From Candidatus Buchananbacteria bacterium RIFCSPHIGHO2_02_FULL_39_17 (GTDB lineage Bacteria > Patescibacteriota > Patescibacteriia > Buchananbacterales > UBA6539), in the NCBI GenBank assembly GCA_001817425.1, contig MHII01000004.1:3392-41488 (forward strand): a stretch of DNA of 38,097 bases, read 5' to 3'. Under the pieces are notes generated by a model. That model did not search any database, had not been told where the DNA came from, and saw only the letters and a program-made list of their open reading frames with translations. Positions within the stretch are counted from its first letter, which is position 1, and each line of letters opens with the position of its first letter. The translations under genes were made by a program, and so were the position numbers. Positions 17,926-28,431 of the stretch are shown in pieces.

Positions 17926-19047
17926 TTAACTTATATCTTCATAGATCACTAAAGTTTTTTGGGCACAGGTTTGCCAGTTGAATTTTTTAAGTTGAACCGG
18001 CCCATTTTTTTTAACTTCAGCTCTAAAATTATAATCAGTCACTATTTGATAAATTTTTTTAGCAATATCGTTGGGATCATATGGATCAAAGTAAAGAGCC
18101 AACTCCCCCAGCATTTCTGGTAAACTGGTTGTTTTAGAAGCGGCTACTGGCGTGCCGCAGGCTAATGATTCCAAAGCGACTAGGCCAAAACCTTCGCAAA
18201 ATGAGGGTAAAATAAAAGCCTCTGCTCCTTGGTAAAACAATGGCAATTCATCGCTAGCAATAAAGCCCGGCGTAACAATATCATTTTTAAATTCAGATTT
18301 CTTGACTGCTTCTAAAATTTCTGGATAAGCTGGATCTGGTTTGCCGCCCAAAACCAACTGAAGATTAAGATTAAAATCTTTTTTTAAAATTTCAAAAGCT
18401 TTAATTAAACCAGTAAGATTTTTATGATCGCGCCAAACGCCAAGATAAAAGATAAATGGTTTAATCAGTTGATATTTTTTCTTAAATTCTATCAGTTTGT
18501 TTTTGGGAGTAACTTGTAAAAAAGATTGGTCGAAACCAAGATAAATTGTTTCAATTTTTTTCGAAGTGATTAAAAAATTTTTAACCAGGTTTTCTTTGGT
18601 GTGGTTGGAAACAGTAATAATTTTTTTCGCTCGCCTTAAGGCGCTATTGATTGTCAGAGAGTAACCAAATTTTCTAATCGCCGATTTTTTTACTTTTGGA
18701 CCAGGAAAAAATTTTGGCGTAATATCATGGATGGTTAATAAAAATTTTTTTGGATATAAAACAGGGGCATTGAAATGGGGAAAGTGAACTAAATCTAAAC
18801 GATAATTAAGTAAAATTTTTGGCAACTTAATCTGTTCTGACCAACTATACCAAGGTAAATTAACTTTAATTTTATTAACTCGATTATTAAGAGGTCGGAA
18901 ATTTGAATAGGCCGGATCATTCATAAACAAAAAATAATCATTTTTTTGGTCAATTAAAAAAAGATGGTCGGTTAAATTTTTGATATAGACACCGATACCG
19001 GTAGTTGATTCGGCACCGTACATTCTTGTATCAATACCAATACGCAT
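17926..19047 (-). CDS. GT4-family glycosyltransferase
   Basis: 373 residues, GT-B fold. N-terminal MRIGIDTRMYG with a GIGVYIKNL glycine loop (17-25); a C-terminal domain with LGVWRDHKNL (207-216) and the EX7E motif EGFGLVALESLACGTPVAAS (about 285-304). Retaining enzyme that uses a nucleotide sugar; donor and acceptor cannot be told. It lies downstream of the repeat element at 19104-19218 and has no Shine-Dalgarno (the sequence before the ATG reads CCTCC on the coding strand). Paralogous to the next gene upstream, which shares the MRIGID start. Confidence 0.9.
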   Translation of the reverse strand: MRIGIDTRMYGAESTTGIGVYIKNLTDHLFLIDQKNDYFLFMNDPAYSNFRPLNNRVNKIKVNLPWYSWSEQIKLPKILLNYRLDLVHFPHFNAPVLYPKKFLLTIHDITPKFFPGPKVKKSAIRKFGYSLTINSALRRAKKIITVSNHTKENLVKNFLITSKKIETIYLGFDQSFLQVTPKNKLIEFKKKYQLIKPFIFYLGVWRDHKNLTGLIKAFEILKKDFNLNLQLVLGGKPDPAYPEILEAVKKSEFKNDIVTPGFIASDELPLFYQGAEAFILPSFCEGFGLVALESLACGTPVAASKTTSLPEMLGELALYFDPYDPNDIAKKIYQIVTDYNFRAEVKKNGPVQLKKFNWQTCAQKTLVIYEDIS

Positions 19048-19103
19048 AAAGTTTAATAGGAGGGCAAATCATGATAAATTAGATTTATTTAGATCTAAAG
19101 GGT

Positions 19104-19218
19104 TCTCGCCCCGCTCTAAACCTTTAGCTAAAGTCTGATTATTAAACTAAAGTAAGCCGAAGGCGTTTCCGAGAACGGGAGTTAAAAATTATAAAAATAA
19201 TTCGGGCTTAGGGCGGGG
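19104..19218. mobile_element. CCCCGC/GCGGGG-bounded repeat element, copy B
   Basis: 115 bp between TCTCGCCCCGC (19104-19114) and GGGCGGGG (19211-19218). Shares with copy A (28265-28387) both ends and a core TTATTAA, TAAAG, AAGCCG, GGCG, TCCG in the same order; in both the core folds as a small GCC/GGC hairpin. It sits between a partial gene start (19219-19235) and the intact glycosyltransferase start (19031-19047). No coding capacity of its own. Mobility is inferred from its dispersed copies and the flanking duplications. Confidence 0.55.
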
Positions 19219-19235
19219 TCAATGCCAATGCGCAT
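19182..19235 (-). pseudogene. Orphan glycosyltransferase start abutting element B
   Basis: ATG at 19235 followed by codons for MRIGID and then the element sequence (P-A-L-S-P...) to a stop after 17 codons. The first 17 bases (19219-19235) are identical to the start of the glycosyltransferase at 20401 and match the start at 19047 at 15 of 17 positions. It may be the remnant of a lost paralogue or a duplication made on insertion. Could still be translated as a short upstream peptide. Confidence 0.5.
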
Positions 19236-19288: not shown

Positions 19289-20401
19289 GAGTTCTATTAT
19301 TTTTAGGATTTCAGCGGCGGTAGCTGGCCAACTGAATTTTTTCGCCTGTTCTAATCCCCTCTCGCTTAAAATTTGTTGCAGCTTTTCATCAGCCAGCAAT
19401 TCATCAATACTTTTCGCCAACTCATTAATGTTATAAGGGTCAATTAATAATCCGGCATCACCAATAACTTCAACTAACGATGAATTAAAACTAGTGATTA
19501 CTGGTTTGCCGCAAGCCATAGCTTCCAATACTGGCAAGCCAAAACCTTCATAGATAGAAGGGTAGACAAAAATTTTTGCCATTAGATAAAGCGATTTTTT
19601 ATCCTGGAGTGGAATATAACCAAGAAATTTAATTTTTTCTTTTTTGTTTGACCTCTCATAAAGTCGATAAATATTTTTATATTTCCAGGCTGGACTACCG
19701 GCAATAACTAGATCAACATCACTCTTGATTAATTCATAGGCTTTAATTAAACTACTTAAATTTTTTCTTGGTTCAAGATTGCCTAAATAAAAAATATAGT
19801 TATTACTCAATTGGTATTTATTTTTAACGGTTAAAAGTTGATTTTCATCGTCAGGTTGATTAAACAAGCTATTCAAGCCTTGGCTAATAACTTTAATTTT
19901 TTTGGGGTTAATTTGGTATAAATTTACTAAATCATTTTTTGTATTTTGAGAAACGGCAATGAGCCAATCAGCCTTTTGGCACAGTAATTTTGGTCTAATT
20001 AATTTATGCCAAAGGCGTTTTTTAAAGGTAAAAAAATCAGGGTAAATCTCAAAACTTAAATCATGAATGATCAAAATTTTTCTACATTTTTTTGAAAGAT
20101 GGGAAAACAGAAAACCAGGGGTTAAAAAAACATCAACCCCGCCGATCAATCTATCAATAGCCGGATATTTTAGAAAAGTCATTGATAAATTAAAAATTTT
20201 ATTTGGATAATTGTATTTTTTATACTCTACATTGGGATAATCAAACTTTGGCAGAGTCACAGACCTTGACGCATTATAAAACAAAAAATATTGATTTTGC
20301 TGATCAATTTTTAATAGCTCATTTAATAAATTATAAGTATATTCACTGATTCCTGAATAATATTTTTCCGTTAAGCAGCGAATATCAATGCCAATGCGCA
20401 T
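19274..20401 (-). CDS. GT4-family glycosyltransferase
   Basis: 375 residues, GT-B fold. N-terminal MRIGIDIRCL and SGISEYTYNLL (16-26); C-terminal LGNLEPRKNLSSLIKAY (about 206-222) and EX7E motif YEGFGLPVLEAMACGKPV (about 284-301). Retaining nucleotide-sugar transferase of unknown specificity, paralogous to the gene at 17926-19047. It follows the 20423-21538 gene by 21 bases in the polysaccharide operon. Confidence 0.9.
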   Translation of the reverse strand: MRIGIDIRCLTEKYYSGISEYTYNLLNELLKIDQQNQYFLFYNASRSVTLPKFDYPNVEYKKYNYPNKIFNLSMTFLKYPAIDRLIGGVDVFLTPGFLFSHLSKKCRKILIIHDLSFEIYPDFFTFKKRLWHKLIRPKLLCQKADWLIAVSQNTKNDLVNLYQINPKKIKVISQGLNSLFNQPDDENQLLTVKNKYQLSNNYIFYLGNLEPRKNLSSLIKAYELIKSDVDLVIAGSPAWKYKNIYRLYERSNKKEKIKFLGYIPLQDKKSLYLMAKIFVYPSIYEGFGLPVLEAMACGKPVITSFNSSLVEVIGDAGLLIDPYNINELAKSIDELLADEKLQQILSERGLEQAKKFSWPATAAEILKIIELGIKN

Positions 20402-23047: not shown

Positions 23048-23545
23048 CCAAGTAAGCAAGGTGGTCGCCCCCTCACTTGGTCCGATGATTAGTATTTAGG
23101 AAACATAAATACCTTATATATTTAATCATTAAGCCAAGTGAGGGGGAGGAAAGTCCGAACACCATTCCCGATTTAATGTCGGGGTAAAATGGCAACTCCT
23201 AACGGGAGCCGAGAGTAACAAAAGAGTAGAAGCGCTTAAGACTTCTGCACTTTTGCCAAGCTTAGGGCAAGTGCAACAGAAAATATACCGCCTAAGTCCT
23301 CCGCAGTTGCGGTGGAACGGTAAGGTTGAAATCGTGGGCCCACCTTTGGGTGGGATACCCTCGCTTCGGCGAGATAAAGTAAGAGCCCACGGCCGACAGA
23401 CTGGTAACAGTCGGGTTGGTAAACTCCTGCCTGGTGCAATGCCAAATTAGGTAGGCAGCTTGATCCCGACGGCAACGTCGGGACCAGATAGATGACCACC
23501 CCCCTTAAAAGTGGGTGACAGAATTCGGCTTATTAGCTTACTTGG
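23048..23545 (+). ncRNA. rnpB: RNase P RNA (bacterial type A)
   Basis: Catalytic RNA that trims tRNA 5' leaders, about 498 nt. Helix P1 is CCAAGTAAGC (23048-23057) with GCTTACTTGG (23536-23545). The P4 strands are recognisable as GAGGAAAGTCCGAACACC (23146-23163) and ACAGAATTCGGCTTA (23519-23533). GTGCAACAGAAA (23271-23282) and the L15 CCA-binding motif GGTAAACTCC are present. P3 is unusually long: a 13-bp arm (CCCCCTCACTTGG with its complement) capped by two further stems (GATGATTA/TAATCATT and GTATTTA/TAAATAC). No tRNA or protein partner gene is adjacent. Confidence 0.96.
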
Positions 23546-23556
23546 ATAATAAAAAT

Positions 23557-26467: not shown

Positions 26468-28237
26468 TTATCTTTTGAGCACCGCTAAAAAAGCTTGGGC
26501 GGGAATTCCAACCTTACCGGTTTGCATCATTTTTTTCTTGCCTTTTTTTTGTTTTTCCAAAAGTTTTCGTTTTCTCGTGTAATCGCCACCATAAAGCTTA
26601 GCGGTGACGTCTTTACGCAAAGCAGACAACCGTTCAGCGGCAATAATTTTACCGCCAATGGCCGCTTGGATTTTTACCATAAAAAGCTGACGCGGTAAAA
26701 TTTCTTTTAAAGTGGCAATAATTTTTCTCCCGACCTGATAAGCCTCATCTTGATAAACCAATGAACTTAAAGCCTCAATTTTTTCTTCCGCCACTAAAAT
26801 ATCAAGTCGAATAATTTCTGTCGGCTGATAATTTAATAAATCATAATTTAAGGAAGCGTAGCCGGAAGAAACGCTTTTTAACTTGTCGTAGAAATCAAGT
26901 AAAAGAGTGGTTAGGGGCAAATGATAATGCAAAACCGCGATATTTTCGTCTAAATATTCCGTGTTTAAATAAACGCCTCTTTTCTGGGAAACTAATTGCA
27001 TAATTCCCCCCAAATAAGCAACGGGTGAAAAAATATCAACTAGCATAATTGGTTCAAAAATTTGACTAATTTCTTCGGGTTTTGGCATTTCCTGCGGACT
27101 TCTAATCGTCAGGTTGATACCATTTTTTAATTTTAATTGATAAGCCACTGACGGCACGGTGACGATTAGATTTAAATCATATTCGCGTTTTAATCTTTCG
27201 GTGACAATTTCAAGATGAAGCAAACCTAAAAAACCGCAACGAAAGCCAAAGCCTAAGGCGGGAGAATTTTCCGGCTCATACATTAAGGCAGCATCGTTTA
27301 ATTTTAGTTTTTCAATAGCGTCACGCAGACGCGGGTATTCATTGCCTTCCTGACAAAATAATCCGGCAAAAACCATTGACTTAACTTCTCTATAACCAGC
27401 CAAAGGCGTAACATTAGCTTTTTCAAAAGTAATAGTATCACCAACGCGACAGTATTTTATCTCTTTTAGACCGGTAACAATATAGCCAATTTCGCCGCTT
27501 TTAAGCTCTGTGGTTTTTTCTAATTTTGGCTTAAAATAGCCGACTTCTAAAGCTTCCATGGCCTTGGCGGTTGAAATAAATCTAATTTTATCGCCAGCTT
27601 TAATTTTGCCGTTAAAAATTCTGACTTCTGCCACCACGCCTCGAAATTCGTCAAATTTAGAATCAAAAATTAAAGCTTGAAGCAACTCATCGTTTTTTGC
27701 CGGCGGCGGTGGAATTTTTTTAATTAAAGCTTCTAAGACTTCCTGAATGCCTTGACCAGTCTTAGCTGAGACTGAATAAATATCATTTGGCTCACAAGAA
27801 AGTAAATGGCAAATTTCGCTTCGTGTTTTTTCAATTTCAGCATTAGGCAAATCAATTTTATTAATCACGGGAATAATCGTCAGATTCTGTTCTAGGGCTA
27901 AATAAAGATTAGCCACGGTCTGCGCTTGGATACCCTGACTAGCGTCAACCAAAAGAATTGCGCCTTCGACTGCGGCTAAACTTCGGGAAACTTCATAGCT
28001 AAAATCAACATGGCCCGGTGTATCAATTAAGTTTAATTCATAGCCTTGCCAATTCATCCGTACGGGTTGAAGTTTAATCGTAATCCCACGTTCCCGTTCA
28101 ATATCCATTTGGTCTAAAATTTGTTCTTTCATTTCGCGTTGGGAAACCGTATTAGTCAATTCTAAAAAACGGTCCGCTAACGTGGACTTACCGTGATCAA
28201 TATGCGCGATAATGCAAAAATTACGAATGTTATTCAT
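26468..28237 (-). CDS. lepA: Elongation factor 4 (LepA)
   Basis: Ribosome-bound GTPase that back-translocates or assists 30S assembly. 589 residues. G1 AHIDHGKST (11-19), switch I GITIK (51-55), G3 DTPGHVDF (72-79), G4 NKID (126-129), the long domain order II-III-V, and the LepA-specific basic C-terminus (RKRKLLEKQKKGKKKM) are all present. The start ATG at 28237 lies at the inner edge of repeat element A; a second copy of codons 4-15 lies 194 bp upstream. A weak AGAGG precedes the ATG. A promoter inside the element probably drives it. Confidence 0.96.
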   Translation of the reverse strand: MNNIRNFCIIAHIDHGKSTLADRFLELTNTVSQREMKEQILDQMDIERERGITIKLQPVRMNWQGYELNLIDTPGHVDFSYEVSRSLAAVEGAILLVDASQGIQAQTVANLYLALEQNLTIIPVINKIDLPNAEIEKTRSEICHLLSCEPNDIYSVSAKTGQGIQEVLEALIKKIPPPPAKNDELLQALIFDSKFDEFRGVVAEVRIFNGKIKAGDKIRFISTAKAMEALEVGYFKPKLEKTTELKSGEIGYIVTGLKEIKYCRVGDTITFEKANVTPLAGYREVKSMVFAGLFCQEGNEYPRLRDAIEKLKLNDAALMYEPENSPALGFGFRCGFLGLLHLEIVTERLKREYDLNLIVTVPSVAYQLKLKNGINLTIRSPQEMPKPEEISQIFEPIMLVDIFSPVAYLGGIMQLVSQKRGVYLNTEYLDENIAVLHYHLPLTTLLLDFYDKLKSVSSGYASLNYDLLNYQPTEIIRLDILVAEEKIEALSSLVYQDEAYQVGRKIIATLKEILPRQLFMVKIQAAIGGKIIAAERLSALRKDVTAKLYGGDYTRKRKLLEKQKKGKKKMMQTGKVGIPAQAFLAVLKR

Positions 28238-28264
28238 AAATCAAAAAAACCTCTTTTACTATAA

Positions 28265-28387
28265 TCTCGCCCCGCGTTAAGCTTATAGATTATACCTCAG
28301 TTATTAATTAAAGCAAGCCGCGAGGCGACTCCGTGCCAACTAAACTATTTGATTTATTATTAAAAATCCGCGAGCTTTAGTGCGGGG
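28265..28387. mobile_element. CCCCGC/GCGGGG-bounded repeat element, copy A
   Basis: 123 bp from TCTCGCCCCGC (28265-28275) to GCGGGG (28382-28387). The core TTATTAA, TAAAG, AAGCCG, GAGGCG, TCCG is shared in order with copy B at 19104-19218. The core folds as GCC-GCGA-GGC, a GNRA-type tetraloop hairpin. It is inserted between murJ and lepA and flanked by 36-bp direct repeats of the lepA 5' coding region. It holds a promoter facing lepA. No ORF of its own. Confidence 0.6.
28289..28316 (-). promoter_or_regulatory. Promoter inside element A facing lepA
   Basis: Minus strand: TTGCTT (28316-28311), 16-bp spacer, perfect TATAAT (28294-28289). At the matching place in copy B the -35-like TTACTT is kept but the -10 is not. 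Confidence 0.5.
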
Positions 28388-28431
28388 TGATCAATATGCG
28401 CGATAATGCAAAAATTACGAATTTTTTCCAT
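28360..28431 (-). pseudogene. Truncated duplicate of the lepA start
   Basis: ATG at 28431 encodes MEKIRNFCIIAHIDH, the usual LepA N-terminus, then runs into element sequence (PALKLADF) and a stop: 23 codons. It starts 18 bases after the murJ stop, where the original lepA start probably was. Could be translated as an upstream peptide. Confidence 0.7.

Follow-up and report, generated by a model that had tools for sequence, protein, structure and literature searches.

Why should the beginning of a gene stand on the far side of a short DNA element, when the gene behind that element has a complete start of its own? The question is raised by a stretch of 38,097 nucleotides from Candidatus Buchananbacteria bacterium RIFCSPHIGHO2_02_FULL_39_17 (GenBank assembly GCA_001817425.1, contig MHII01000004.1), here called the window. 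A preliminary description of the window had noted two copies of such an element, A and B, and had proposed that insertion just inside gene starts is a property of the element. In the following, E denotes the element, X' the orphan start that runs up to its first base, X the working start behind it, and t the spacer between E and X. The cut is the position in X that corresponds to the junction of X' with E. Loci and related genomes are given by handles (L and G numbers). The features of the window are collected in Table 1.

Table 1. Features of the window around the two copies of the element, with the RNase P RNA gene of the same stretch.
Feature	Positions	Strand	Basis
Orphan start X', copy B, ATGCGCATTGGCATTGA (ATG and codons for MRIGID; the junction with E splits the Asp codon)	19219..19235	-	sequence
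Element copy B, 115 nt	19104..19218	-	model R1, E value 1.1e-23
Spacer t, copy B, 56 nt, ahead of the working start	19048..19103	-	sequence
Working start X of the adjacent glycosyltransferase; cut-equivalent position 73 nt past the end of E	19031..19047	-	sequence
Glycosyltransferase gene downstream of copy B, 373 aa	17926..19047	-	ORF
Orphan start X', copy A (lepA start), MEKIRNFCIIAHID, 44 nt	28388..28431	-	sequence
Element copy A, 123 nt	28265..28387	-	model R1, E value 1.1e-18
Spacer t, copy A, 27 nt	28238..28264	-	sequence
lepA gene; working start X at 28237-28194; cut-equivalent position 71 nt past the end of E	26468..28237	-	ORF
RNase P RNA, bacterial class A, with a long extra hairpin	23049..23548	+	169.8 bits

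Copies A and B both match the same covariance model. A recount of the 17-base orphan of copy B agrees with the earlier figures: 15 bases are shared with the adjacent glycosyltransferase, and all 17 with the glycosyltransferase at 20401. In copy A, the orphan and the working lepA start are identical at 41 of 44 positions. Both orphans also enter E in the same frame, as had been described, giving D-P-A-L and H-P-A-L. Taken alone, copy B is a weak case (17 bp, score 13), but the number of repeats across the whole family is beyond chance. The observation on copy B is thus confirmed as real and general.

The family is best read as a structured, non-coding, mobile element of about 118 nt, or about 125 nt including its tail. 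Earlier copies in the window genome came from exact patterns; the covariance model, R1, was built from 13 copies. With R1, the window genome has 28 strong copies (E value <= 3.9e-9), copy B among them, and its further matches are weaker or are opposite-strand echoes of the palindromic ends. Counting the window genome, matches are found in 28 of 93 relatives at an E value <= 0.1, and in 24 of 380 genomes of the class at <= 1e-6. This distribution is patchy: G004 and G006 are rich in copies, and most genomes of the class have none. An exact pattern run across named genomes also has matches in Sungiibacteriota, Moranbacteria and Harrisonbacteria, all of which we take to be Patescibacteria. Exact-pattern matches outside these phyla may be chance palindromes. 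One exact pattern was tried on viral contigs and has no match there.

The fold of E is supported by paired changes. In an alignment of 70 matches (68 distinct) that was fitted to the model, and therefore leans towards it, pairing is found in 88.2% of cells, and changes on both sides of a pair occur in 114 cells, compared with 44.0 in shuffles, and affect 11 of 18 pairs. When the structures are slid by one to three columns as a control, at most 26 double-change cells are left. In an unfitted alignment of 13 sequences there are 14 such cells against 7.4. The outer helix, of six pairs, is paired in 92.6% of cells. We take these covarying helices to mean that E is a selected structure, either as RNA or as single-stranded DNA.

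The sequences of E group by genome. For instance, the copies at tsaD and at a response regulator of the window genome (L040 and L042) are 85% identical. This clustering indicates that E spreads inside a genome. Exchange of whole E-bearing alleles between species by homology was considered and rejected, since E groups by genome and not by target gene, a signal that is itself weak (60-68% identity). The L040 and L042 copies share an extra hairpin inside E and are a recent intragenomic pair. Retrotransposition was also rejected. Reverse transcriptase (RVT_1) has no match in G004, despite the 19 matches to E in that genome at an E value <= 0.1, and likewise none in G011, G028, G063 and G071, so that reverse transcriptase does not track E. 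Putative XerC-type and serine recombinase ORFs lie less than 1.5 kb from two copies of the window genome that have no repeat (L051 and L054).

The repeat described for copies A and B was counted by comparing left flanks ending at E, ungapped, with the first 130 nt to the right of E, a score of at least 12 being taken as a hit. The comparison used 112 of 117 element records; a weak copy (own_L061) and four with short flanks (L111_92, L176_6, L165_17 and L189_710) were omitted. In 45 of the 112 copies the left flank recurs to the right of E, and the match extends as far as the junction. Control pairings give 7 hits in 672 with the right flanks of other copies, and 3 in 112 with the own right flank reversed. 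The expectation that every copy carries a start duplication thus holds in part: a repeat stands at the junction in these 45 copies, but none is detectable in the other 67.

The repeat lies at a preferred distance from E. Among the 45 hits there are two peaks, at 69-76 nt (24 copies) and at 47-57 nt (11 copies), whereas control hits are scattered. The distance goes with the type of tail at the end of E. Copies with a CGAGA-like tail have a repeat in 20 of 30 cases, and all 20 repeats end 69-74 nt past E. With a CARGC-like tail a repeat is found in 20 of 31 copies, at 33-101 nt and mostly at 33-66 nt, and with a T-type tail in 4 of 31. One further locus, L110 (G006:C21), is absent from the hits because its distance of 175 nt exceeds the 130-nt reach. 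A different palindrome of 101 nt, CCCGTTAG...CTAACGGGGCGAGA, stands there directly to the right of E, and from the end of this second palindrome to the cut there are 74 nt, so that the ruler restarts at that point. Palindromes similar to that of L110 (CCCCGTTAG/CTAACGGGG) occur in L188 and beside L095.

For 24 protein genes the repeated sequence is their own beginning, starting at the ATG and always in the sense orientation. Its length varies from 17 to 60 nt, and the cut accordingly lies 17-60 nt past the ATG. The genes include lepA in three genomes, gatB in two, polA in two and six copies of response regulators, together with uvrA, uvrD, tsaD, dnaK, secA, thrS and rplX; except for the response regulators, these names are presumptive, being based on the protein starts. 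Insertion just inside gene starts therefore recurs in many genes, but it is not the whole rule, as promoter regions and tRNA genes, the latter in both orientations, are hit too. At L039 of the window genome and at L158 the cut falls at TTGA|CA, which we read as a promoter -35 element.

The proposal that E inserts after an ATTGA sequence proved too narrow. That sequence fits a less strict junction, [G/C]A|[C/T], whose three positions are found in 31, 31 and 32 of 36 listed junctions (35 of the 45 repeat-bearing copies and L111_92). In seven gene starts that were checked, each start has between one and five such sites. For this reason, the short motif does not suffice to explain why the same base was chosen more than once in lepA, gatB, polA and the response regulators. 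The codon phase of the cut is biased as well, against a background for phase 2 of 206 in 494. A run of C at the start of E shifts some model junctions by one base, and the codon phase was re-anchored by hand; the frame from orphan into E is as in copies A and B in 22 of the 24 genes after this anchoring, and in 16 before it. In the translated copies, the reading frame of X' stops in E or soon after it.

The differences between the two starts of a gene are mostly synonymous. Of the differing codons in 20 gene pairs, 48 are synonymous and 35 non-synonymous, and from the sixth codon on the numbers are 27 and 5. The set comprises 20 of the 24 pairs (GT2, tsaD and the frameshifted RR2 and rplX were omitted, and polA and uvrD were trimmed by one codon). 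The synonymous share is 58%, and the maximum of 2000 neutral simulation runs is 31%. Upstream of the ATG, the picture is different. Over the 22 nt before it, likeness within a locus is no higher than between loci (mean rank 0.44; 20 of 22 genes, two spacers being too short), with a weak likeness possible in rplX, dnaK, uvrA and RR2. Taken together, the synonymous bias and the unrelated upstream sequence imply that both starts evolved as coding sequence, and that the gene, not some set point within a duplication, determines where the repeat begins. The orphan is frameshifted in RR2 and in rplX, and is thus not needed in every case. The most telling regularities go beyond the preliminary description: a constant spacing of about 72 nt, a divergence biased towards synonymous changes, and the lack of homology before the ATG.

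A few loci allow the native side to be told from the other. In polA of G112 the orphan reads MKKEKIAIID, as in G083 of the same genus, where the gene is without E, and the working start reads MKQDKIAIID. In gatB of two genomes the orphans keep GAAATCCA, which is present in 6 of 7 E-less relatives whose gatB start was found; the working copies differ there. In G126 (L170, 857-989, minus strand), the Rfam L10 leader (65.2 bits, gathering score 44) lies to the left of E and rplJ to its right. In this operon E stands between rplJ and its usual L10 leader, which adjoins E and does not lie on it. A weaker case is lepA of G202, where the orphan is closer to some E-less genes, and the working start closer to that of the window genome. 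One locus of the window genome is mirrored (L046), with a complete tRNA-Ala to the left of E and a fragment to the right. In young pairs the native side is indistinguishable. Thus, in the few cases that can be compared, three or four in number, the orphan start is the native one.

The reading that we prefer, tentatively and with a probability of about 0.4, is that a mobile non-coding element inserts in the start of a gene and brings a substitute start with it. In the few testable cases X' and the leader upstream of it are native, from which it follows that the inserted piece there is E and the roughly 72 nt behind it. Such a unit measures about 190 nt in all and ends exactly at the cut. Its 72-nt arm would substitute for the interrupted part of the host, whether leader, ATG and first codons, the end of a tRNA or a promoter -35 element, and the host gene would survive through this arm. 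The limited length of the arm would explain why the cuts in 24 genes lie at only 17-60 nt. Integration may be carried out in trans by a putative site-specific enzyme, and the fold of E may be the part that this enzyme recognises, or the moving form itself. As for the fitted start, one guess is that it was acquired by a long duplication at the first insertion and later exchanged among related genomes. The fixed distance, the native orphan, the unrelated upstream sequence, the 17-60 nt limit and the mixture of sites are together explained most simply by an inserted unit of E and about 72 nt.

Several observations count against an inserted unit. There are the 67 of 112 copies without a repeat and the mirrored L046, and no integrase or transposase is linked to E. 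One lineage of E would have to carry arms fitted to many genes. A weak upstream likeness is possible in four genes, and the bias in codon phase is not accounted for. Furthermore, in some loci the two starts are nearly identical (35/35 at the junction in lepA of the window genome, 41/42 in L161 and 49/49 in L158), which is more readily explained by recent copying on the spot than by the import of a start.

Such pairs are among the arguments for an ordinary transposition with a long target-site duplication of about 65-72 bp. In this model, the duplication regenerates the gene, so that insertion is harmless only near gene edges; the noncoding part on the left would be lost later, and the coding part kept by exchange between the repeats. 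The model explains the constant distance from E to the cut and the near-identity of the repeats in L158, L161 and RR3, and it allows the complete copy to lie on either side, as in L046. We nevertheless consider it unlikely. No clear homology is found before the ATG even in the youngest pairs, and in L158 the identity stops sharply after its 49 nt. The synonymous bias would require selection or exchange on a copy that is supposedly dead, and in polA and gatB the derived copy is the right one and not the left. The plain version, a 72-bp duplication, was rejected: the fixed distance fits, but the upstream homology is missing, and the unrelated sequence before the ATG does not fit an ordinary target-site duplication.

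A second alternative, which appears quite unlikely, is that X' and E are transcribed together as a guide at the 5' end and a scaffold at the 3' end. E would move or act at sites matching X', at a fixed distance as in CRISPR-associated transposons (CASTs) and with wobble mismatches tolerated, and X would be either the target or a recoded, protected copy. X' does abut the closing stem of the conserved fold, the distance from E to the cut is fixed, and orthologues are hit at the same base (three copies in lepA, two in gatB and two in polA). The three lepA genes with E (window genome, G079 and G202) have ATCGCGCATAT before the cut in both copies, and it is found in 0 of 8 E-less lepA genes. The homing guides of CASTs tolerate wobble mismatches and target tRNA and conserved genes, according to a review (PMC11406308). 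However, no conserved PAM-like sequence follows the cut beyond C/T, several X match X' perfectly near the cut and would themselves be targets, and the match runs to the ATG, from 17 to 60 nt, with no fixed guide length. Escape mutations in a guide seed were rejected because lepA, uvrA, thrS, secA and others have no mismatch near the cut.

E might instead be a cis-regulatory leader RNA, in which X' is an upstream frame that mimics the gene start, or ribosomes might hop to X, leaving the Asp or His codon that ends X' for its counterpart there. In G126, G273 and G100, E does lie in 5' leaders shortly before an ATG, in two of them behind promoter-like sequence. In G126 and G273 E belongs, with a downstream hairpin, to a stretch of about 180 bp that stands ahead of unrelated genes, and a comparison of the two for an empty site finds a different gene after a common promoter. 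X' keeps its ATG and mostly its frame, the cut codon is usually GAC or CAC and faces GAY or CAY in X, and the late codons show the synonymous excess described above. Still, the same anatomy is found in tRNA genes, some of them antisense, and in untranslated promoter regions, X' is frameshifted in RR2 and rplX, and Shine-Dalgarno-like motifs are sparse (1 on the left and 5 on the right among 23 starts). A leader is therefore distinctly improbable. Translational bypass as a general account is excluded by the tRNA and promoter copies.

Very improbable, in our judgement, is a home-and-rescue element of about 190 bp, in which X' and E as guide and scaffold direct insertion or cutting at essential gene and tRNA starts and the 72-nt arm is a partly recoded substitute start. 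If true, the element would be hard to lose and would spread between species without genes of its own. Finally, the orphan of copy B could be the relic of a deleted third glycosyltransferase paralogue that adjoins E by coincidence, which the preliminary description had itself named as a possible refutation; the 17/17 identity allows this for copy B alone, but it cannot explain a family whose anatomy and distance recur at other genes and tRNAs, and in which two of the four response-regulator orphans of the window genome clearly match their own neighbour best, so that it is hardly credible.

If the inserted unit with a substitute start is right, a genome-reduced lineage hosts a gene-free element that survives in essential genes by means of a fitted replacement. 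This would show a new way in which selfish elements of small size can persist in compact genomes, a long-standing question, and would be a lead to a novel recombination or RNA-guided enzyme with a 72-nt ruler. Annotators would have to treat a start codon that precedes such an element as a decoy.

We know of no named element that shares the layout of a split gene start with a working start at a fixed distance. Titles and abstracts, which made up most of the literature searched, hold nothing that describes E. No Rfam model matches E, either in the window or at 10 loci, and this includes the group I and II intron, riboswitch and leader models.

Among elements that restore the end of an interrupted gene, SXT at prfC is an integrative example. 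As with E, the native fragment and the substitute end that the element brings lie on opposite sides of it, and conserved genes or tRNAs serve as sites. A native fragment with an opposite substitute end is found in polA, gatB (two genomes) and rplJ, more weakly in lepA of G202, and mirrored in L046. SXT-type elements, however, measure kilobases and have their own integrase and one site, whereas the unit of E would measure about 190 nt, with no genes and many sites. The roughly 190 nt between X' and X are too short for an integrase gene, and the unit contains none.

Guide RNAs offer another comparison. In the sgRNA of Cas9 and the omegaRNA of IscB, left-flank sequence is followed by a structured scaffold, the same order as X' and E; E differs in having no Rfam HEARO match and a full second copy of the target behind it. 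In CASTs, the match and the element end are separated by a fixed distance, as with E. Their homing guides also resemble X' in matching conserved genes and tRNAs with wobble mismatches (PMC11406308), but no CRISPR repeat or Tn7-type genes are seen with E, and the order is flank and scaffold, not an array of repeats and spacers. IStrons and group I introns, like E, are insertions in conserved genes and tRNA genes that do not harm the host (PMC4227781 and PMC3984707). E is far too short for these, matches no Rfam intron, and is also found in promoters and antisense to tRNAs.

Small palindromic elements are similar in form. Like miniature inverted-repeat transposable elements (MITEs), E is short and non-coding and has terminal inverted repeats and many copies. 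The constant target-site duplication of MITEs is not found around E, where the repeat is 17-60 nt long and the upstream sequence is unrepeated. The palindromic elements of Rickettsia (reviewed in PMC10969869) are also about 100-150 bp long, non-coding, folded and multicopy, and lie in genes in one frame. They are read through inside the protein, whereas E splits the start and has a second, complete start at a fixed distance; an open frame through E inside a protein is absent in the translated copies. E thus resembles the small palindromic elements in size and fold and the end-restoring elements in logic. It departs from each in defining traits, and is therefore filed as a small, non-autonomous mobile element.
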